Shown here one piece after another: positions 2,300 through 62,812 of a stretch of DNA of 64,000 nt. The translations under genes and the position numbers were made by a program. Within the stretch, counting starts at the first letter, position 1. Each line of letters opens with the position of its first letter. This stretch comes from Sipunculus nudus (Eukaryota; Annelida; Sipuncula; Golfingiida; Sipunculidae), in contig CM049314.1 of NCBI GenBank assembly GCA_026874595.1, positions 4,053,318-4,117,317 on the forward strand, in the 5' to 3' direction. The notes under the pieces were generated by a model. That model was not told the DNA's origin. It was given only the letters and a program-made list of their open reading frames with translations, and ran no database searches.

Positions 2300-3288
2300 A
2301 CAAAGAAGAAGAGGAAATTAACAATAACTAATGTAGGAATTGACAGAATAAAATGTTATAACATATAAATGGATTCAAAGGTTTATAGCGAAAGCCAAAA
2401 GACGGACATTATTATTAAGACGATTTGATTAGTTTGATTCCAAAGATTCCAGAGAATAGTGGACTGTTTGTTAAAGGTTCCATGTGAATATGGTAATAAT
2501 GATACAGCCATAGTACAATCTCTCTGAAAAAATACTGTAGACCGTTTATTAAAAGTTAAAAATACCACATTAAGTTCAAACAGAGATTGGATGAAACCAA
2601 CACATCTGTATAAATCCTCGTCATTTTATTAATCATTATTCTCTACATTAAATATATAATCGATCTGAGACATTACAAACGATGTGGACGGGTTCTTAAG
2701 GACCAACTCTCATGATCTTAAATTGGATATGACATAAAACCTTCCACTTGCATGCGCAGAATTCTTGATAATCGTCTTCTGTGTTCGACACCAGTAAATC
2801 AGCATTTCATTCTAGGTAATAGTTTGTATTTTTATGAAATTTAACACACAGAAATGTATGATCGTTTGATAATCTACTCCACTGGTTGACACCGAATGCA
2901 CTTTGAGGACTATTTTCTTTAAATTAACATATTTTTACAAAGTTTGGCACTAAGCCGACGAGGGTTTATCGGGCTAATCTAAACTTAATGGTACAAGCCC
3001 ATAGAGACTCTTACCTCAGTGCCTTTATGATTCAACTTTTATGCAAGGTATGGATTTGTTTTCATCTGTTAATTATGCCTATGTCTCATTTCTTCTATGC
3101 AGCTTACTATTTGGAAACGACGTGTCACTTTTTAAAACATTACCTTATTTCAATGAGTACCTCACTATGGCACAGACAACAGTCGATTTAACGGAACCGA
3201 ATACTTAGAGTCATTTCTCGCGACAAGGTGTCGCTATTGTGGTAGGAAAGAATTACATTACATAATATAAGATTTCATCTACATAACA
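2300..3288. other. 3' flank of the SLC16-like gene, no other gene seen
   Basis: This is the region downstream of the transporter stop codon. A TTTTATT at about 2626 reads AATAAAA on the minus strand and could be a distant polyadenylation signal, but no transcript evidence ties it to the gene. Confidence 0.35.
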
Positions 3289-3458: not shown

Positions 3459-6400
3459 CTGAAATCAAAAGCAGCAAGAACACTAAATGCCTGCAATCAG
3501 CAAGAGATAACAGGAAGCCTCCAACTCCACGGGTGGTCAGGAACGGAAAGATAATCGCCGACTATTGAGTGTGCGACCTTAGAAATAAGGTCAACGTAAA
3601 GGATAAATATCAGATATCAGGTGCAAATCTGTTTCCTAGTGCTTATACTGTGTTAAAATTTCAGCCCGCTTGAGATCAGGCGCAAACCAAAAGGCAGAAA
3701 AATAGTTGTTTACCCAATGTATGGATATAAACTCGTCATCCCATGTCAGCCTCTCATTCTTATAAATTACTAGTATACTGTACAAAAATCTTTCGGTCAA
3801 TCTGTCCTTCGAATGTTACTTTTCAGATATTATTCATATACAAAAAAAAAAAACATTCGAAAAGATTAAGGAGTAATTCATCAATGTAAGACATCCGAAA
3901 TATCTGTCAGGTAAACCTGTTTGGATAACTTTGAGCCTGATTAAGTTCAAAACGCCAATTTCTAAAAATAATTCATTGCTATATTTGTACATGTATATTC
4001 AATGCAGGGTCTTTGGATGTTCAGCAACCGTCCACTTTTAATTAAAGAAGGGAAAAGAATTAAAAAAGTGGATCTAGTTTCCATACCTTTACTAAAATAT
4101 ATCATATATTAATAGAGAATAATTCATAACATCTTCGCAAAATAGTCTGCAGGGTCATATACCACAAGCAAATCGATAGTGCTGCAATTGCGTATAACAA
4201 ACACAAACTGAACCGCAAAGCGGGACAACATGCGTTAAAGGTTAAGAAGAAAACCGGTGATCTCTGGGGCAGCGCCAATTGATATGACTGCAACTTGTGT
4301 CGACTAGATTACACCAGGTGTCACTCTACGCCACTGAGCACAGATGTGCAAGGTCTGATGGATAAAATAATCATATTTGTAGACCGACGCTTCATTTTTT
4401 CTATTGATATCTCTTTACTATTTTCCTTTGACATCTGTAGATGGAAGCATTTTTACACATGTTTTATGTTAACGCGTTTCATGTACCTTGATTTACAAAC
4501 TATTGTTTTATGGTGCAGGCACAATACATCGGAGAAGCATATACAAAAAGTGTTATTTACTTACCAGCAATCGGGGGAGACAAAAGTGTCGACACCCCGC
4601 AAGTGAAAATAAGCAGTCCTGAACCCGTCGCCAGTTTATCGGAGGGCACCAAATCTCCGATTATTGTGCAATCTAGGGATACGTAACCAGCTACAAAGAA
4701 CAAGGGATTTTATGTTTTTATGTGGTTCAAAACCGCCTGAGCTATTTTTTTCTTTCTTAATTTATAAAACTATAAATAAGCTAAAATTTACGCCGATTTT
4801 TATTTGCCATTTATAAATTGGCCATTGAACTCATATCAATTCTTTTAAATTCTAACAAAACACGGGATTTTGGCGGATGAAAAGATTCACGAGACTTACA
4901 CCTTTGAAACAGCAAGAAAAAGCAAATAATATACCTTACATGATTATACAGTAAAACCTCGAAATTAGGACCACCATCGGGACCTCGATAGAGTGATCGC
5001 ATTTCTCTGGCGAGGTCTTATATAAAGAGCGAAAAAAGAATCAGCAGAATCAGCAAAGTGGTCGTTGTTTTTAGGTTGTCGCACAACGTAGATGATTGAA
5101 ATGTCTAGGTTTTACTGTAAACTTAAAAATCCTTCCAAAAATAACTTACCGCTTAAAGCTCCAAAAAAACCGGCGTAGGTTGCGATCAAAGCATAATCAT
5201 CAAAGAAATAGAAAATAATACTCAGGCTACCAGCTGTGATTCCGGCCCCTGCATGTACTAAGGTTCTCCCATAACCGATCTTATCACCCACAAACCCTAC
5301 AAAGGGTCTCAAGGCGCCGCTGCATACTCCAAATATAGTCATTGAGGTAGCTGCCCTGAAGCTGTCGTATCCTGCACCGATGACCCTCGCAGGAAGCAGA
5401 ATGAACGGGACTATGTGTGAAGCAAGCACAAAAGCGTCCGCCAATAAATAGAGTATTACTTTCAAGTCTTTCAAAAGGCCTAAGTCTAATAATCGAACTG
5501 CCCTTTGAAATATTGACAATCGTTTGCTATCTTCCGAAGTACTGGACGATTCGTCGTCATCTTCTCTGGGGACTTGTGGTTTCAGTAACGCGCCGGCCAC
5601 TACGCTGTTGAGTTGTATACCGCCAAGTATAACTAAAGCCCCTCTCCAACCGTAGGTATCAATGAGTACTCGGCTCAGTATAGGAGACACGAACGTGCCA
5701 AGGCACAAACCAGTCATAGCAACCCCAATAGCGAGCGCACGACGTTTCTCAAAATATTCCAGAAGAGCTACCACGCCTCCAATGTTGTAAGTTCCTGTGC
5801 CAAGACCTGTAAAAGTAAGAGAGTATCAAACTTTTGGAGGGCTTGGTAAATCAAATACCTAAATAATATAATTCTACTGGCTACGTCATTGCATTCGGAT
5901 GTTCACCAAAGTTTTAATGATGTCTCCCAAGACCCATGTGCCACCCCTCCACAACGTTTTATCGAATAGGTCGCAAGGTTCTTGCATAATCCTGCTGGAA
6001 TACAAACAAATCAATTATAAATAATCACCTAAATACAGGGAAAATAATAAAAAAGATACACATAATTTATAGCAAGAGTAATCTTACTCAAATTTGAAAA
6101 AAGAGTTTGTTCGCTCTCAGTTTTATGAAGACCCCTTACCACCAAACACTCACAAGTTTAGATTCTCGCCTGTACGCACCCCGGCGGCCTTATCGAAGCC
6201 TATCAGGTTTACTTCTCATAGTTACAGTGCTCATGGGGGCTGTCATTTTGCGTACACACAAACACCCGGATGTCAGGTGTTATTTTATTTTTAAATTATG
6301 GGTATACCGCTAGTTGAAATAATATTCCTGACCAACGTTAAGCCAGGCATAACCCACTGAGGCCATTTGACATACAAATATGAATTTAACTGAACTTAGG

Positions 6401-23338: not shown

Positions 23339-24270
23339 GGGGCTGTGTCAGATTTGATTTTTGGGAATATTACTGTGGGCATGAGAACGACTTTACCCTT
23401 TAAGGGAATTCAGTTGCTACTAGGCAATGATGTTGCAGGTGACAAAGTACAGCCTGTACCAATAGTGATAGAAAAGCCGTCACTTGATAAGGAAACTGAT
23501 CCGGAAAGTCAGGAAATTCCTGCTTTGTATCCTTCATGTGCTGTAACTAAATCTATGGCCAAGAAAAACACACATGAGGTTAATGGTCCAGATAATAACA
23601 CTCTGGGAGTCACTAGTGACACAACTATCAACTCGCCCGTACAGGATACAGCATTTTCAAGGTCAGAACTTATCGCGGAACAGCATAAGGACCATGAAAT
23701 TTCATGTTTGTTTCCCAGGACAGTTTCTAAAGAAGAACTATCACAGAACCCAGTTTGTTTCTATGTAAAAAATGGAGTGCTTATACGTAAATGGCGACCA
23801 CCTGATGTTTGTGCTGATCATGAGTGGGCCATCAAACATCAAATAGTAATGCCCAAAAGCTTTTGCAATGAAATTCTAAGCATGGCACATGAGGCTCCTT
23901 TGTCTTGCCATTTGGGTATAAATAAAACTTATCAGAAAGTTAGTCCACACTTTTATTTGCCTAACCTCAGGAAAGATGTTGTACAATATTGTTAGTCATG
24001 CCATACGTGCCAGATGATAGGCAAGCCCAATCAGAATCCTCCTAAGGCTCCACTTAGGCCTATTCCTGCTTTCGAGGAACCATTCAGTAGGATTATTGTT
24101 GATTGTGTTGGACCACTGCCCAAAACAAAATCTGGACATGAATATTTGCTGACAATTATGTGCTCATCTACCAGGTTCCCTGAGGCAATAATATGCGCAA
24201 AATTAATGCCAAAAGAGTTGTCAAAGCTCTGACCAAGTTTTTTTATAACCTTTGGATTACCTAAATCCGT
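23339..24270 (+). pseudogene. Ty3/Gypsy retrotransposon pol relic: protease C-terminus joined to integrase (Gmr1-like order)
   Basis: The frame opens with the tail of a retropepsin-type domain (LPFKGIQLLLGNDVAG), a linker with SCAVTKSMAKK, then the lead-in to integrase (RKWRPPDV, HQIVMPK). A zinc-binding HHCC domain follows (AHEAPLSCHLGINKTY ... YC-stop-SCHTCQ), then the start of the integrase core with the first catalytic Asp in IIVDCVGPLPK. It is broken: an in-frame TAG at 23994-23996 sits within the zinc finger, two frameshifts lie near 24205-24250, and the sequence ends at FGLPKSV before the second catalytic Asp. No reverse transcriptase lies between protease and integrase. That order matches Gmr1-like Gypsy elements (protease-integrase-RT-RNase H). 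Non-functional. Confidence 0.88.
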
Positions 24271-27660: not shown

Positions 27661-28830
27661 CTAACGTCGAGAGTTTCGTTCTCCCAACATAAAAGACACT
27701 GTGTGTTGCGGAGCTGTTTGAATCAACTGAGTCGGGGAAGACGCAGACCGAAGCAACTGATTTTCCCTGAACATCGCTCTCCTCCTGCGTCGTCTCTGCA
27801 TGGCTGAAAGTTTCCTCTTCACTTTATCGTAAGCAAAACAGAACAAATATATAAACATCATTCCAACCAGGGAAGCTGCAATATTCACACCCGTTCGGTA
27901 GTCATACTCACTTATATAAGGCTTTTGTGTTGGGTAGCTTAAAAGAGGACAGCGCCTTGTTTGGGTTTCGCACACCAGATGGCGGTACGATACATTGAGC
28001 AAACTCTGTCCTGAAAAAGATGACGGGCTGTCACATTTAAGTACTCTCCATTCACGTTTAAGGTAACTTTGGAATGTTAACCAGTATTTCATAATCCTGA
28101 TTGTACAATCACACGTCCATTTGTTTCCGAAGAGTCGTATCTCTCGTAGCTTATCAAACCGTTGAAGTGTTTTGAAATTTATAGACGTCAAATTGTTATA
28201 GGATATGTCGACCGATTTTAAATGGAAACTGTTATTAAACAAATGTTCTGGAAGAACTTTCATACCTAAACCACTAATATTAATATTTTCTACGCGAGAA
28301 GGCAATATGATAGCTTCAAGGGATTCCCATTTTATAGGATTATACCCGATGCTAATACTCCTCAAATTACGTAATCCCCTAAATTCCGATGACGGTAAGG
28401 TCTGCAGCAAATTTCTTGTTAAATCTAATGACCGTAATAAATGTAGCCGCGATAAACTCCCATTTTCAATGAAGCTTAATTGATTATGACTCAAATCTAA
28501 TACTTCTAATCTATGTAGGAATTGGAAGGAAGTCCTAAATATTGCGTCGATTTTATTTTTGCGTAAAATGAGTGACGTAATTCCCGAATTCCTTTCAAAA
28601 GTCGTGTTTGGTATTGACTGTATGGCGTTGACACTCAAATCAACTTTGGTTATGTAATTCGAAAAATTTCTGAATGGAATGTGTTGAAGGTCACGGTTAC
28701 TGCAGTTCATTGTTCTGCCAGAAATGACGCATTGTGCATTGTTGTATCCCTCGCTGAGCAGGACAAGTTCCAGGGCGGCCAGAATAAAGGAAGCCAGTGT
28801 GCTGGCACGACATCCATCAGTGCTGCCCAT
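27661..28830 (-). CDS. LRR type I transmembrane protein A
   Basis: 389 aa, one coding exon. Hydrophobic signal peptide at about 10-28; LRRNT-like cysteines C34 and C43; about eight leucine-rich repeats at about 60-237 (for example LEVLDLSHNQLSFI, LRSLDLTRNLLQTL, LKSVDISYNNLTSI). An LRRCT cap follows with C240, C242, C266 and C287, then membrane helix at about 314-334. The roughly 55-residue tail has a run of arginines (346-351) and HTVSFMLGE (376-384). Several N-x-S/T sites fit an extracellular ectodomain. A splice acceptor TTTTGCAG lies 8 nt before the ATG (28839-28841), so an upstream 5'-UTR exon is implied. Its relative is at 37561-38778. The tail lacks a TIR or kinase domain, so it is not a Toll receptor. 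Adhesion or receptor role is inferred; ligand unknown. A TTTATT at 27289-27294 could be the poly(A) signal. Confidence 0.93.
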   Translation of the reverse strand: MGSTDGCRASTLASFILAALELVLLSEGYNNAQCVISGRTMNCSNRDLQHIPFRNFSNYITKVDLSVNAIQSIPNTTFERNSGITSLILRKNKIDAIFRTSFQFLHRLEVLDLSHNQLSFIENGSLSRLHLLRSLDLTRNLLQTLPSSEFRGLRNLRSISIGYNPIKWESLEAIILPSRVENINISGLGMKVLPEHLFNNSFHLKSVDISYNNLTSINFKTLQRFDKLREIRLFGNKWTCDCTIRIMKYWLTFQSYLKREWRVLKCDSPSSFSGQSLLNVSYRHLVCETQTRRCPLLSYPTQKPYISEYDYRTGVNIAASLVGMMFIYLFCFAYDKVKRKLSAMQRRRRRRAMFRENQLLRSASSPTQLIQTAPQHTVSFMLGERNSRR

Positions 28831-31361
28831 GCTGATTCCTGCAAAACATCAATAAGTTCAGTTATTATTTCACACAAAACATATACATGTTATTACCATA
28901 CCAAGGGCCAGGTATGTAACCAACATAATTAACCGTATGCAGTGATTACTACGCAGTAGTTCCAGCCAAGTTCATACAACTTCAGCGCACACGCACCAGG
29001 ACCTTAATAAACACACTTGGAGTCCTGCGTTGATGTCAATTTCATTAAGTACATTCAAACTGGCGACTGCTGCACTTGTCCAAATGTGTTATTCAAGATG
29101 TCACACTAAATCATTTCATAAATAAAAAAGGGCATTGCAAAAGCGACCACTGGGTATCTGCCAGATCACCGAGGTGTGCAGTAAGTTAGGTATTGGATGT
29201 CTTGGCGTTTCTGACACCCAAAATGTTGCCATACCACTTTTTTTTCAATTAGGCCTTGCTTGTCATATATGTTTATATGCTACTTAGATCAACAATAAAA
29301 AAAACTGTAGGTTGAGCAACCATTCTGATGTTCGGGTTATAACTATTAAAGTTCTGTAGACATGCACAAATAACAGGCCAACACATCCGAACACTGCTGA
29401 ATTAAGTGAAATTCAACAATAATAAAGGCAAAAGATATAACGGCGCCTATAGCGCTCTGTATTAAATCAAACTATCTAAGATCTCTGGACAGAGGAAATC
29501 GTTTACATTATTTAACAATAGAGATTAAATCTAGATTTATACAAAAGGTGGCTTCGGGTTTGCCATATCCTACCAAGGAGCTACAGGAATAAACAAGCCG
29601 AAAGATCAGGAAGGCAATTAAACAGTCGGATGGAACTAACCTTGTCTTTTGAATTACCTACAGTTCATTAAAGCGTACGAAGAGTAAGCAATATATCACA
29701 TGAATTCTACAGAGAAGATAGATGAATACTATTTTAGTCAGCATTGTTTCTCTCTGTATATGGTGTTACTCGGAAAGAAAAATATCTGATTGAAAAATAT
29801 CTGATTCCTGAGACGTTAAGCCATGCTAAAAAAGTCTTGCACGGACAAATATAGTATGGACCGAGTGGCCTTTTTTAACATAACGGTGGCGACAAAATGC
29901 ATGTCAACAGGCAGGTACGATCCTCAAGCAGAGGTTATACACCACAGTCGTTCCAAATGTCCTGCCATTGTAACCGCTGCTTTTCATAGCAAGATTCTGT
30001 GGGTCTCACCACCATGTCTAACAATGCATTGTTATCAGACTAATGAGAGAGTGGTATCTTATACCACTGAATGGCAATGGTCCTTGACCGGGATAAAGTA
30101 ATTGACTTATTCCACAATGAGAAAGAGTAATGAAATGTCTATAACAGTATTTTGGTGAGTTAGATTACCTCCAGTATTAAGTTAATTGTTCCTTGACTGT
30201 TATTGGACCCCCCCCCCCCGCTAGAAATTTATAAAAAAAATCCCTTCATAACATGATCAGAAAAGGTTGCTATTCACAAACTAAACTGCCGACCAAAGAA
30301 AAACATACTACTGGTGGTGGAGGTATAACTTGGTCTTAGATGTAGCGGTTTCAGATTACCCCCTCTTCGGATACCCCCCCCCCCCAAAAAAAAAAAAAAC
30401 TCCCTACAGTATCAGATTATCCCCTTTGCTTCTTTATGTTTATTTACTTTAATTTTTTTTAATATTTTTTATTTCTTTGTTCTGCATTTTTCAAATTAAT
30501 TTGAATATTTATTCCTTACGTTTACAGGTAATGGGCCATGCGCGTTGTTGAACTGTATGAATCAATATAAATGTAATTACCAAATTATTTAGATACTAAT
30601 TTGCGGCAATTATATTTTTTTCGGATTGATTGCAACTTTTAATATCGTGTCTTTCATGTGGTTTATCTCAAAATATCATGAGTGTAAAATACTTGAATTT
30701 ATAACTTTTTTATCAACGTTGTTATTCTGAACGGTACGGGGTTAACTAAAATCGGTTAAGATCCTTAGTCACAGGGTTCACACAAGGAAATAATAATACC
30801 CCGAAGAGGTTTAGCATATCAGCATGTGGTGTCCATATTAAGCATACCAAGATTCTCAGGTACATAACAGAAACTCCAAGAATTGTCATGGTAAGCGCAT
30901 AGACCCCCTCCCCTCCAGAAGCCGTCTCCCTTAGTACTTAGCCCCAACATTTAATCAGCTAATGTAGCCGCCTTTGTTTAGTAGATGCATTTAGTTTGGG
31001 AAAATGTGAAAAGGTGCAATACATTTATATTCGGGTCTGATGGTCTGTGTATGATCTAGAACTATAGTTTTTTATTGCATCGAGACGGGTTTAATCACAT
31101 TTAGGTGATCTCCCGGCCATCTGTCGTTAAAGGCATGGAAATTTGTTTTTGTGTAGAAGCATTTGACATATCAGTTGGCAAAAGAAAATCTTGAATTTAT
31201 TATCCTAATGAAGCTGGTGTTGTTTTCATCTATGTCTGTTTATTCACTGGCTTTTAGTCTGGTTCTTTTGAAGGTTACACAAAAACCACTTCACCTATAT
31301 CTATGACACTGTGTAGGGGTGGGATATGGACAAGAGATGATCCAATTAAATTTTGGTGAAA
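28831..31361. other. 5' flank / presumed first intron of LRR protein A
   Basis: The 5'-UTR exon must lie upstream of 28841 but cannot be placed. Poly(C) runs and TTTCAGATTACCCCCTC-like text near 30350-30425 resemble sequence at 61.2-61.5 kb, suggesting a small shared repeat. No further coding exon is recognised. Confidence 0.4.
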
Positions 31362-34131: not shown

Positions 34132-35135
34132 ATGAGTGTAACACAGAATATGATAGAAACACAGAACATGATTGATACACAGAACATGATAGATACACAG
34201 AACATGATAGATACACAGAACATAAAAGAACCACAGAATATGATAGATACACAGAATATGATAGATACACAGAATACCGTGGATACACAGAATATGATAG
34301 ATACACAGAATATAATAGATACACAGAACATGAAAGAACCACAGAATATGATAGATACACAGAACATAAAAGAACCACATAATATGATAGATACACAGAA
34401 CATAGAGGAACCACAGGATATGATAGTTACACAGAATATGATAGATACACAGAATATGGTAGATACACAGAATATGAAAGATACACAGAATATGATAGAT
34501 ACACAGAACATGGTAGATTCATATAATATGGTAGATACACAGAATATGATAGATACACAGAATATGATAGATACACAGAATATGATAGATACACAGAATA
34601 TGATAGATACACAGAATATGATAGATACACAGAATATGATAGATACACAGAATATGATAGAAACACAGGATATGATAGATACACATAATATGATAGAAAC
34701 ACAAAATATGATAAAAACATAGAATATGATTAATACACTGGATATGATAGATACACAGAATACGATAGATACACAGAATACGATAGAAACACAAAATATG
34801 ATAGAAACATAGAATATGATTAAAACACAGAATATGATATATACACAGAATATGATAGATACACAGAATTCGATAGATACACAGAATGTGATTGAAACAC
34901 AGAATGTGATAGAAACACAGAACGTGATAGGAACACAGAACGTGATAGATACACAGAACATGATAGATACACAGAATGTGATAGAAACACAGAACATGAT
35001 AGATACACAGAACATGATAGATACACAAAATATGATAGATACACAGAACATGATAGATAGACAGAATATGATAGATACACAGAATATGATAAAAACATAG
35101 AATATGATAGATACGCAGAATATGATAGATACACA

Positions 35136-35138
<3 letters not shown>
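34132..35138 (+). repeat. 18-bp minisatellite (~55 copies), open in several frames
   Basis: Unit ATGATAGATACACAGAAT is repeated about 55 times with substitutions but almost no length change. Because the unit is 18 nt and lacks stops in most frames, it yields long artificial open frames: the hexapeptide MIDTQN on the plus strand, and FCVSII, SVYLSY and ILCIYH on the minus strand (longest 404 codons). There is no non-repeat domain, signal peptide or splice context. The array's right end merges into a (TA)n tract, as if the terminal AATAT had expanded. I call this a minisatellite rather than a gene. Confidence 0.9.

Positions 35139-35191
<53 letters not shown>
35137..35191. repeat. (TA)n microsatellite at the end of the 18-bp array
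   Basis: About 54 bp of TA, continuous with the last minisatellite unit. Confidence 0.97.
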
Positions 35192-37560: not shown

Positions 37561-38778
37561 TTACTCCTGGTCACAATCTTCCTTATCTCCTAACATGAAG
37601 GACACAGTGTGTACGGAGTCAGAGTTCGGTAACTGAGTGTGGTTACTGTCAGAGATGGGTACTTGAATCTGCTCGCCATCCGCGTTACATAGCTGGGCCT
37701 GACTGGACATAACCCGCAGGAGATACTGCCGTCTCTTTGCCAGTATTGTCTTCTTCCCTTTGTCATATATAACACACAGCAGGAACATTAACCCGACCGC
37801 AACCAAGGGAGCCGCCACATTCAGCCCAGTCTTATAGGTGAAGCTATAAACATATGGCTTTCGTGTTGGGAACCTCCAAGGTGGACATCTGAATACAGGC
37901 CTCCAGCATGTGAGATCGGAGTATGATACATTCGCCAGGCTCTGTCCCGCCATATGCCTTGGGGCGTGGCAGATGTACTGATCCATCTCTCCCGCGGTTT
38001 TATTACTTCGGAACCTCAACCAGGAAACTAATACTCGGATCCTGCAATCACAGGCCCATGTATTTCCATCAAGATAGACCCCTGATAAAGTGCTAAGCCC
38101 CTGAAGAACTGGGAAACTTATGAAAGTCAGGTTATTGTTTGACAGATCCAGAATTTGCAAATTGCTGCTTTTCTCGAGAAGTAACTCTGGTAATGATGTC
38201 ATTCCAATACCATTTAATGAAATTTCTGTCACGAAGGATGGTAGGGTCAAATTTTGAAGTGAGTCCATCTTTATAGGATTTTCTCCAAAATGGAGATACC
38301 GCAAATTATCCATTTCAGAAAGCTCTTTTTCTGGAATATCTGTGATAAAATTGTTGCTGAGATCAAGATATTGTAATGAACTTAGGTAGGACAAGCTGTT
38401 TTCTTCGATAGTTCGCAGCATATTGCGACTCAAATCCAGCACCTCTAATCCATATACAGCATCAAAGTAATAAGGCTTTATGATTTTCAATCTGTTGTTG
38501 CTCAAATTAAGGTGCTTAATAAAAAGGCTTCCCTTGAAAGCTTTTGTCGGAAAGTGTGCTACTCTGTTAAAGCTATGGTCAGTCGCATACATCCGAGTCA
38601 AGGCACTTATCTGTGGAATTAGGTCAAGGTCAAGGTTGCTGCAATCCAGGGTTTCATATGAACAAGCGCATGGTTTACAGTTGAGACATTCCACCTGCTG
38701 GACCAGTGAAAATATCATCGGGACAGACCATTTCAATATGGCGACAGCAAGCTGAAATCGAGGCCCATTATGCGCCAT
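37561..38778 (-). CDS. LRR type I transmembrane protein B
   Basis: 405 aa, one coding exon. Signal-peptide-like hydrophobic segment at about 9-29; LRRNT cysteines C31, C34, C37, C39, C46; about eight LRRs at about 62-240 (LEVLDLSRNMLRTI, LQYLDLSNNFITDI, LQILDLSNNNLTFI). LRRCT cap with C243, C245, C270 and C291, a further Cys298, then PTRKPY and membrane helix at about 318-338. The roughly 67-residue tail ends with HTVSFMLGDK (390-399). It shares with protein A the order of parts, GQSL-NVSY, the RCP-PT-KPY membrane-proximal segment, Y-TG-N-AA at the helix start and the tail motif. A TTTGTTTAG acceptor lies 3 nt before the ATG, the same 5'-UTR intron position as in A. No TIR domain. Function inferred as adhesion or recognition receptor; ligand unknown. 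Confidence 0.93.
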   Translation of the reverse strand: MAHNGPRFQLAVAILKWSVPMIFSLVQQVECLNCKPCACSYETLDCSNLDLDLIPQISALTRMYATDHSFNRVAHFPTKAFKGSLFIKHLNLSNNRLKIIKPYYFDAVYGLEVLDLSRNMLRTIEENSLSYLSSLQYLDLSNNFITDIPEKELSEMDNLRYLHFGENPIKMDSLQNLTLPSFVTEISLNGIGMTSLPELLLEKSSNLQILDLSNNNLTFISFPVLQGLSTLSGVYLDGNTWACDCRIRVLVSWLRFRSNKTAGEMDQYICHAPRHMAGQSLANVSYSDLTCWRPVFRCPPWRFPTRKPYVYSFTYKTGLNVAAPLVAVGLMFLLCVIYDKGKKTILAKRRQYLLRVMSSQAQLCNADGEQIQVPISDSNHTQLPNSDSVHTVSFMLGDKEDCDQE

Positions 38779-38784
38779 TGTCTA

Positions 38785-59200: not shown

Positions 59201-59960
59201 TGAAAAACAATGACAAGATTCTAAAGTGAATTCAGCAATGTCAAAAATGTTTCATTTTTTTAATTTTCAGAAGATATGATTTGTTTCCAATATATTCCAA
59301 ACAATGCTCGTACCGTTAAAAAAAATGCATCAAAGTTATCTGATAAAAAAAATTAAAAATACATGTTAACCGCAATGTATAATAATTTAATCCTTCTATT
59401 AGTATTTGTACTGCCTCATAAACCATTCAAGAATGTTATCTGTAATGTAATGAACTATGACGTAACACGCTTCAGGGGCAGCGGAAAGCCATATCATCTT
59501 AAGCTCTGTCTACATGCTGCCAGATTTATTGGCTATTGATTAGTTTCGGAACTGCGGGAGGCACCTGTTTCCCTGCATTTATAGCTAGTTCTGCAACCCT
59601 AGCAGACGTCGACAGGTTTTATACAGGTCAATAATTTGTTGATGGCGCCTCATTTTGATTTAGGATAAAGGTATCCATGTAATAAGAATGATATGTTTTT
59701 GGTAAACCTTCTTGGCTCCGTTTTATATAGACAATGAGCCCGGGAAAATGCGAAAATTATAACGTGTCATTAGACTGAGTCTCATGATGCAGCTGCACTC
59801 TGAAGGTTTATGTATTTGTATCCTCAAATTTGCATACAATATTCATGACATAGGTACAATCTCCAAAGCAGAAAGAAGCGTGTCAAAGTACAATCCTGTA
59901 CCCACACTTTACCTTATATGACGCTTCTATCTCGACCAAATACCCATAAATAAATATATA
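56241..59960. other. No gene recognised
   Basis: The first 150 bp contain a short GC-rich patch (GGGCCGGCCCGGCTCGGCC near 56332) but no gene. The remaining 3.5 kb shows no domain-bearing frame, array or structured RNA that I could identify. Confidence 0.4.
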
Positions 59961-59967
59961 TAACCAC

Positions 59968-60015
59968 ATTCACCTGATGATCGGGTCGCATCCCGTGAAA
60001 CAGTCTGTTGTGAAT
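59968..60015 (+). ncRNA. Hammerhead-ribozyme-like motif (minimal type I)
   Basis: All core parts occur in order. Stem I is ATTCAC (59968-59973) with GTGAAT (60010-60015), 6 bp. Then CTGATGA (59974-59980), stem II CGGG/CCCG (59982-59985 with 59992-59995) with a TCGCAT loop, and GAA (59997-59999). Stem III is ACA/TGT with a 3-nt GTC loop (60000-60008), and the expected cleavage site follows GTT at 60009. Short stem III fits the minimal hammerheads of Penelope-like elements. Weak points are a T-T mismatch where stem II normally closes with G-C (59981/59996) and U instead of C before the cut. It may be a decayed copy; activity is untested. Confidence 0.5.
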
Positions 60016-60039
60016 TAACAGTGTTGTTTTTCTTCAGAG

Positions 60040-61235
<1,196 letters not shown>

Positions 61236-61545: not shown

Positions 61546-61584
61546 CTACACAGACGACAAACGCAATGTAGGTTTCTTAAACCT

Positions 61585-62812
61585 GCGCCATGTTTATTCA
61601 TGTTTTACCTGCGCCATGTATATTCATATTTTCCTCCGCCATGTTTATTCATGATTTACCTGCGCCATGTTTATTCATGATTTTCCTCCGCAATGTTTAT
61701 TCATGTTTAGTCTCGACTATGTTTATTCATGTTTTACCTGCGCCATGTTCATTCATATTTTCCTCCGCAAGGTTTATTCATGTGTTAACTGCGCTATGTT
61801 TATTCATGATTTTCCTCCGCCATATTTATTCATGTTTAGTCTCGACTATGTTTATTCATGTTTTACCTGCGCCATGTTTATTCATATTTTCCTCTGCCAG
61901 GTTTATTCATGTTTTACCTGCGCCATGTTTATTCATGATTTTCCTCCGCCATGTTTATTCATGTTTAGTCTCGACTATGTTTGTTCATGTTTTACCTCAG
62001 CTATATTTATTCTTGTTTTACCTCGGTCATGTTTATTAATATTTTACTTTCGCCATGTTTATTCATGTTTCACCTCCGTCATGTTTATTCATATTTTACC
62101 TCCGTCTTGTTTATTCATGTTTTACCTCCGTCATGTTTATTCAGGTTTAACCTCCGCTATATTTATTCTTGTCTTACCTCCGCAATGATTATTCTTGTTT
62201 TACCTCCGTCATGTTAATTCAGGTTTCACCTCCGCTATATTTATTCATGTTTTACCTCCCCCATGTCCATTCATGTTTTACCTCCGTCTTGTTTATTCAG
62301 GATTAACCTCCGCCATTTTTATTCATGTTTTACCTCCGTCATGTTTATTCAGATGTAACCTCCGCTATATTTATTCTTGTCTTACCTCCGCCATGATTAT
62401 TTCTGTTTTACCTCCGTCATGTTAATTCAGGTTTAACCTCCGCTATATATATATTGATGTTTTACCTCCCCGTGTTCATTCATGTTTTAAATCCGTCATG
62501 TTCATTCCTGTTTTACCTCCGCAATGTTTATTCATGTTTTACCTCCTCAATATTTATTCCTGTTATACCGCCGCCATGTTTATTCATGTTTTACTTCCGC
62601 CATGTTTATTTGTGTTTTACCTCCGCCATGTTTATTTGTGTTTTACCTGCGCAATGTTTATTCATGTTTTACTTAAGCCATGTTTAATTATGTTTTACCT
62701 CAGCCATGTTTAATTATGTTTTACCTCCGCCATGTTTATTTATGTTTTACCTCGGCTTAGTTTATTTATGTTTTACCTCCGACATGTTACTCATGTTTTA
62801 CCCTCTGTTCGT
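61585..62812 (+). repeat. 26-bp minisatellite (~47 copies) with higher-order periods
   Basis: Unit close to CCATGTTTATTCATGTTTTACCTCCG plus variants, 26 bp. Left part: a distinctive variant GTTTAGTCTCGACTATG recurs at 61705, 61834 and 61963, a 129-bp (five-unit) higher-order period. Right part: the variant CTTGTCTTACCTCCGC recurs at 62168 and 62376, a 208-bp (eight-unit) period. Because 26 is not a multiple of 3, the open frames it creates shift reading and are artefacts. Confidence 0.95.

Follow-up and report, generated by a model that had tools for sequence, protein, structure and literature searches.

The 83-bp segment at 59962–60044 (+) of the window, which is the whole 64-kb stretch of DNA analyzed here, is very probably a solo pseudo-LTR (pLTR) of a young and abundant Penelope-like element (PLE) that resides in a (TA)n microsatellite. 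The segment (AACCACATT...CAGAGTTATA) matches, with 100% identity, both the initial 83 bp and the pLTR at the 3′ terminus of a PLE unit in another locus (L029), and because of this identity with both ends of the unit we call it a solo pLTR of that PLE. It is preceded by a short AT-rich/(TA)n stretch (59950–59961, +) and followed by a (TA)n tract of 56 units (60041–60152, +), which overlaps the TATA end of the pLTR. The 3′ part of the pLTR (60016–60044, +) ends with TTATA, an insertion end point referred to as site 1 below. A tblastn search of the window with the PLE ORF gave a best E of 1.4, and no RT was thus found near the motif. The original prediction of a Penelope-type minimal hammerhead is supported, and putatively RT-bearing copies occur elsewhere in the genome. 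Its suggestion of a solo remnant or an independent small retroelement stands for the first part, since the copy is solo and has no RT nearby, but not for the second, as the copy equals the end of a ~2.9-kb PLE.

Hammerhead-like motif at 59968–60015

The motif at 59968–60015 (+) contains, by direct reading, a complete type I hammerhead (HHR) core with one flaw, a T opposite T at 10.1/11.1. Stem I comprises 6 bp (ATTCAC, 59968–59973; GTGAAT, 60010–60015) and encloses the core segment CUGAUGA (C3–A9), read as CTGATGA at 59974–59980. Between CTGATGA and stem II lies T 59981, with which the stem II hairpin (59981–59996) begins; the hairpin consists of CGGG (59982–59985) and CCCG (59992–59995), the loop TCGCAT, and the T–T at 10.1/11.1. 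T 59996 is followed by the segment 59997–60009, which includes GAA (59997–59999), a stem III of 3 bp (ACA, 60000–60002; TGT, 60006–60008) with the 3-nt loop GTC, and T17 at 60009. Cleavage is predicted after 60009, that is, behind the triplet GTT (60007–60009). All of these parts are on the plus strand. The motif thus has the CUGANGA and GAA segments and an N-U-H triplet, its three helices are arranged as in type I, and it is conserved in copies. The claim that all core segments occur in order, with stems of 6, 4, and 3 bp and a GTT triplet, was confirmed by this reading.

When both strands of the window were scanned for the structure, 59968–60015 was the sole hammerhead match; no second HHR accompanied any of the 12 further (TA)n tracts. 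Among 150 windows simulated by a first-order Markov model (9.6 Mb, scanned on both strands), none had a match with helices of 6/4/3 bp or better, and weaker helices gave 1 match at 5/4/3 and 11 matches at 4/3/2. A chance origin of the motif was rejected, as a 6/4/3 motif is improbable in a single window. Since the simulation covered 9.6 Mb only and chance copies are possible in a genome of 1.43 Gb, the motif alone is not proof. The hammerhead-like motif is real, and it is a good new example of a known thing and no new kind of ribozyme; according to two publications, minimal HHRs in the pLTRs of PLEs are already known (PMC7761336, PMC6155905).

Covariance models did not recover the motif: Rfam yielded 0 matches at the gathering score over the whole window, and 11 matches at E up to 10 in window positions 59800–60200, with no hammerhead family among them. 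The covariance-model check proposed together with the original prediction hence turned out negative in both searches. RF00163 found nothing over the whole genome (best 73 of 150758 candidates scored), and control genomes gave no match either. The minimum-free-energy fold of the 49-mer differs from the HHR fold and has an unremarkable energy (z = −0.51). For the monomer, the HHR fold has −6.9 kcal/mol versus −11.3 kcal/mol for the best fold, in which CUG of the core pairs with CAG of stem III.

A standard pair is expected at 10.1–11.1 of a type I hammerhead. This pair is absent from the window copy, and both T 10.1 and T 11.1 were invariant in 65/65 ungapped copies, including the tandem copies of L029 (68 copies were found, of which 3 with more than 8 mismatches were dropped). 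The T–T in stem II is therefore a family character. It had been taken as a sign of decay, a view contradicted by its invariance and by the identity of the window unit with the pLTR of an ORF-bearing element, and none of the 65 copies restores the G–C pair that had been proposed as something to look for in consensus copies. The sole frequent difference among these copies was the middle base of ACAGTCTGT/ACAGACTGT (39 T, 26 A). Double compensatory changes in the stems were not found in the 65 copies, which are too alike for this in a young family. That the motif is a hammerhead look-alike with no catalytic role, i.e., an accidental fold in a PLE pLTR, is unlikely given that every core base is present and in order, that HHRs are conserved in PLEs according to published work (PMC7761336, PMC6155905), and that the simulation gives a small chance of a 6/4/3 motif in one window, even though the failure of the Rfam window searches to match an HHR, the T–T at 10.1/11.1, the HHR fold at −6.9 against −11.3 kcal/mol, and the 0 double compensatory changes in 65 copies speak for it.

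Read as a hammerhead, a single copy of the motif folds poorly, and two copies joined in a double hammerhead would fare better. The sequence ACAGTCTGT is self-complementary except for its middle base, so that two copies can share a stem III of 9 positions, which contains one mismatch or, for a T/A subfamily pair, amounts to the full 9 bp. The predicted double hammerhead of two strands has −24.9 to −30.3 kcal/mol, compared to 2 × −6.9 kcal/mol for the monomer HHR and 2 × −11.3 kcal/mol for the best monomer folds; it is also not the minimum-energy state (−29.5 to −32.9 kcal/mol). This model prediction would fit the dimer mechanism published for type I HHRs with a weak helix III, as outlined in PMC6155905 and PMC7761336.

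The parent element, its copies and arrays

The PLE unit measures ~2.87–2.93 kb and consists of a pLTR with the HHR, a leader, an ORF of 703–713 aa, and the next pLTR. L029, which was reached with a pattern matching the sequence that follows the hammerhead, among copies continuing into other sequence, contains three HHR copies at 3154, 6028, and 8895 (spacing 2874 and 2867 bp) around a 703-aa ORF, and its 3′ terminus reads ..CAGAGTTATA followed by (TA)n. About 180 nt lie between the predicted cut site and the first Met of the ORF in this locus. The ORF contains FDIVDFYPSI and YRDDG, which we take to be RT motifs, and a C-terminal Cys-rich region, which is presumably GIY-YIG-like; in a second locus (L079) the motif HYIG...TRYNNH follows the Cys-rich stretch. 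Pfam RVT_1 gave weak matches to fragments of the ORF (E = 0.011, 0.0042, and 0.0032; 15.9–17.6 bits versus a cut-off of 29.6) and no match to the whole ORF, and Pfam GIY-YIG did not match the ORF either. A comparison of the ORF with PDB returned nothing relevant, the matches being at chance level (E = 0.62 and E = 7.2). In viral contigs, the HHR pattern had 0 matches, and the PLE protein had 4 pattern matches that included no relative. The copies of the unit display PLE hallmarks, namely tandem or partial-tandem pLTRs, 5′ truncation, head-to-head inverted pLTRs, a 3′ tail, and an HHR in the pLTR. Based on the ORF motifs and this copy structure, the unit is most plausibly a PLE.

Metazoan non-LTR retrozymes, which are small non-autonomous hammerhead elements spreading via circular RNA, share with the present element a type I HHR and an animal genome as host, and they are reported from mussels in PMC7229834. 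It is nevertheless highly improbable that the window copy is a retrozyme. Retrozymes are, in the same text, tandem repeats of 150–450 bp, whereas the present HHR belongs to an ORF-bearing ~2.9-kb unit that occurs in this form or as the 83-bp solo, with an HHR spacing of 2867–2874 bp and an array step of ~2925 bp. No tandem HHR repeat of 150–450 bp was found in the loci read.

In a search of the 1.43-Gb genome with window positions 59900–60080, the best 40 of 856 candidates were 93–100% identical to the query, and further rows of this search were matches to the TA tract. Conserved copies, which the original prediction had suggested looking for, are thus present in the genome, and tandem and RT-adjacent copies were encountered as well (L029, L079). 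The same block, flanked by (TA)n on both sides, is seen in the window copy and in seven further loci that were extracted. Duplicates were removed before counting (L010–L013 and L021–L028, which overlap; L014, which coincides with L077; and L020, which coincides with L030). Two further solos on C11 (L047 at 481046 and L067 at 451210) have a common left flank and right TA tracts of different lengths, apparently as a result of a segmental duplication.

A search with the PLE protein gave 4165 candidates, the best 63 of which had 99–100% amino acid identity, no internal stops, and mostly 713-aa frames; older PLE copies are outside these best 63 that were scored. In the region C17:42720302–42859899, 25 of the best 63 lie in register with a step of ~2925 bp, which corresponds to ~48 unit positions in a head-to-tail array of ~140 kb. 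Spot checks at five unlisted register points of this array (pieces of 201 bp) revealed a pLTR in 5/5 cases and the HHR core in 4/5, the fifth piece (L084) beginning just after the core. In L079, a 5.4-kb piece of the array, a hammerhead separates two ORFs of 713 aa. The arrangement of best-scoring units in this array partly recurs at a distance of ~38 kb (13 units), similar to a higher-order satellite repeat. The region C12:49443089–49506965 harbors 11 of the best 63; the first 5 of these units are on the minus strand and the next 6 on the plus strand, and this 64-kb block is a large palindrome-like PLE array. By exact count, the genome contains 997 junctions between element body and pLTR, including those of array units, and 40 of the 5′ junctions TATATATA|ACC that represent the type of the window copy, although not all of the latter end at site 1 (L068, L069). 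A second 5′ junction, (TA)n|TTCTAACC, was seen in several loci. The solo form looks like a minority of the copies, and the PLE family is young, with identities of up to 100% between copies.

Insertion end points and a proposed route of insertion

We aligned the unit by blastn to 18 loci, which had been chosen through the sequence downstream of the hammerhead, leaving out alignments below 40 nt. Insertions ended at position 83 (site 1; ..CAGAGTTATA) or near position 145 (site 2; ..CACTACCTTCTA). With a nineteenth locus (L019) included, the scored ends numbered 29; site 1 accounted for 11 of them and site 2 for 18, the latter at 138, 142, 145, or 146–148. In 24/29 cases the end was followed by 30 nt with at least 70% TA/AT steps, as compared to 59/6397 30-mers of the window, and the other 5/29 were followed by a shorter TA or AT-rich stretch. 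An exception outside this count is an arm in L032, which ends at 144 beside (CT)n. Of the head-to-head pairs with both 3′ ends readable, 10/11 have one site-1 and one site-2 end (L019, L030, L032, L033, L035, L038, L071, L076, L077, and L078; the exception is L074). In these loci, which were picked for a site-2 or short-TA end, the one-end-each asymmetry of the inverted pairs is suggestive only. By analogy, it would fit the tail that rotifer Penelope has on one inverted pLTR (PMC3846280) and the pair of RT start sites in the Anolis element PAc (PMC11167929). The head-to-head pLTR pairs of three loci (L014, L076, L078) are short, adjoin TA tracts, and meet around GGTTAGAATTCTAACC in a junction that is palindromic or almost so; they are tiny inverted mini-elements. 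The right TA tract was longer than the left in 33/36 solos; this was dropped as evidence, since 41 bp of the query came from the TA on that side. More generally, the search that gave the solos had TA in its query, which biases their 5′ junctions and the lengths of their TA tracts.

The role of minimal hammerheads in PLEs is described as still a mystery in PMC7761336. With a young family, stop-free ORFs among the best copies, arrays, and sharp ends, the present element allows a direct test of the model in which cut RNA serves as template. If it did, insertions should start at unit position 48 (GTGAATT..). Instead, the 29 pLTR alignments of at least 40 nt in the 18 loci start at positions 1–19, some of them continuing upstream into the element body. 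Because short arms could drop out of the alignments, we also turned to the segment downstream of the hammerhead, of which 31 copies had been selected in 19 loci by a pattern that did not require the hammerhead. The hammerhead region was kept by 30 of them, the remaining one being the plus arm of L030, which begins near position 36; a further arm, in L032, begins at position 81. The exact cut-site junction TATATATAGTGAATTAACAGTGTTG had 0 matches in the genome versus 40 for the pLTR start junction; the zero count covers TATATATAGTGAATTAACAGTGTTG, and ATATATATGTGAATT is an alternative form of the cut-site junction. That no insertion was found to start at the cut site speaks against cut RNA being the usual template. 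It also agrees with results for PAc, where HHR mutants were without effect on insertion in vitro (PMC11167929).

From the sequence identities, copies, arrays, end points, and TA flanks, which were read directly in the genome, we infer the RNA steps and any self-cleavage as follows. RNA from a pLTR or from tandem units would be reverse-transcribed at nicked (TA)n DNA, with RT initiating at an internal UA-containing site of the element, either 83 (UUAUA) or ~138–148 (CUA/CUUCUA). A cDNA from the first site that stops near the pLTR 5′ end (AACC, position 1) would give an 83-bp solo, and longer cDNAs would give truncated, complete, or tandem copies. For the window solo, we lean toward such a direct insertion rather than recombination. 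Recombination of a formerly complete PLE through its two pLTRs, in the way that solo LTRs arise, is a possible but rather doubtful origin, which rivals the route and not the PLE identity of the window copy: complete units do have the identical 83-bp pLTR at both ends, so that an exchange would leave a solo, and PMC3846280 reports solo pLTRs without other PLE sequence and explains them by recombination and/or deletion, but recombination between pLTRs alone explains neither the single site-2 pLTRs with a ~62-nt tail (L068, L069, L072) nor the short inverted pLTR pairs (L035, L071, L076), which fit direct short insertions.

Comparison with known elements and further features of the window

A literature search, which left most subscription papers outside, yielded no description of the present family, of the insertion of an HHR-bearing PLE into (TA)n, or of arrays of dozens of endonuclease-type PLE units. 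PLEs of the green lineage have been described in (CA)n repeats. The Poseidon element of Anolis, PAc, is similar to the present PLE in its single ORF with RT and C-terminal EN motifs, the HHR in its pLTRs, its tandem units, its AT-rich target, and two internal RT start sites, which leave a "tail" (PMC11167929). The two differ in that the ORF of PAc starts at stem II, whereas in the present PLE the first Met lies ~180 nt from the predicted cut site. Moreover, the present PLE occurs in (TA)n tracts and both of its end sites finish in TA, while RT in PAc starts at RNA that is non-homologous to the cut DNA (PMC11167929). Bdelloid Penelope (PMC3846280) likewise has head-to-head inverted pLTRs with a tail on one of them, solo pLTRs, and 5′ truncation. 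However, its pLTRs are ~180–220 bp long and its copies very few, in contrast to the 83-bp pLTR, the hundreds of copies, and the long arrays of the present PLE.

The Terminons (PMC6431247) also carry an HHR near the 3′ end that is followed by a short stretch with the capacity to pair with the target repeat, which in the present PLE would be UUAUA versus TA repeats. Elements of the Terminon type are said there to form long head-to-tail arrays. Terminons are endonuclease-deficient and attach to telomere repeats, whereas the present PLE has EN-like motifs and uses an internal microsatellite; furthermore, the Terminon repeat lies immediately downstream of the HHR, while ~29 nt extend from the HHR to the end of the present element. 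We tentatively propose that an EN-bearing PLE may have adapted its hammerhead-plus-UUAUA end for homing to TA microsatellites, as an internal counterpart of the telomeric Terminon ends. UA of the RNA would pair with nicked (TA)n and prime RT at two places, the 83-nt unit would be the smallest insertable piece, the fold of the ribozyme rather than its cleavage would matter for insertion, and the arrays of ~48 units would act as source loci.

Several other features were noted in the 64-kb window. Two leucine-rich-repeat proteins with long open frames and a similar layout are located at 27661–28848 and 37561–38781 (−) and are possibly paralogues; the Pfam comparison covered the first of them. Two minisatellites, at 34141–35141 (18-bp unit, 55.6 copies) and 61581–62802 (26-bp unit, 47.1 copies), have long open stretches in at least two reading frames. 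A retroelement fragment at 23339–23995 (+) contains an integrase H2C2 zinc-binding domain (E = 5.2e-13), and an open stretch at 5112–5825 (−) matches the major facilitator superfamily (E = 1.4e-23) and is probably a transporter exon.
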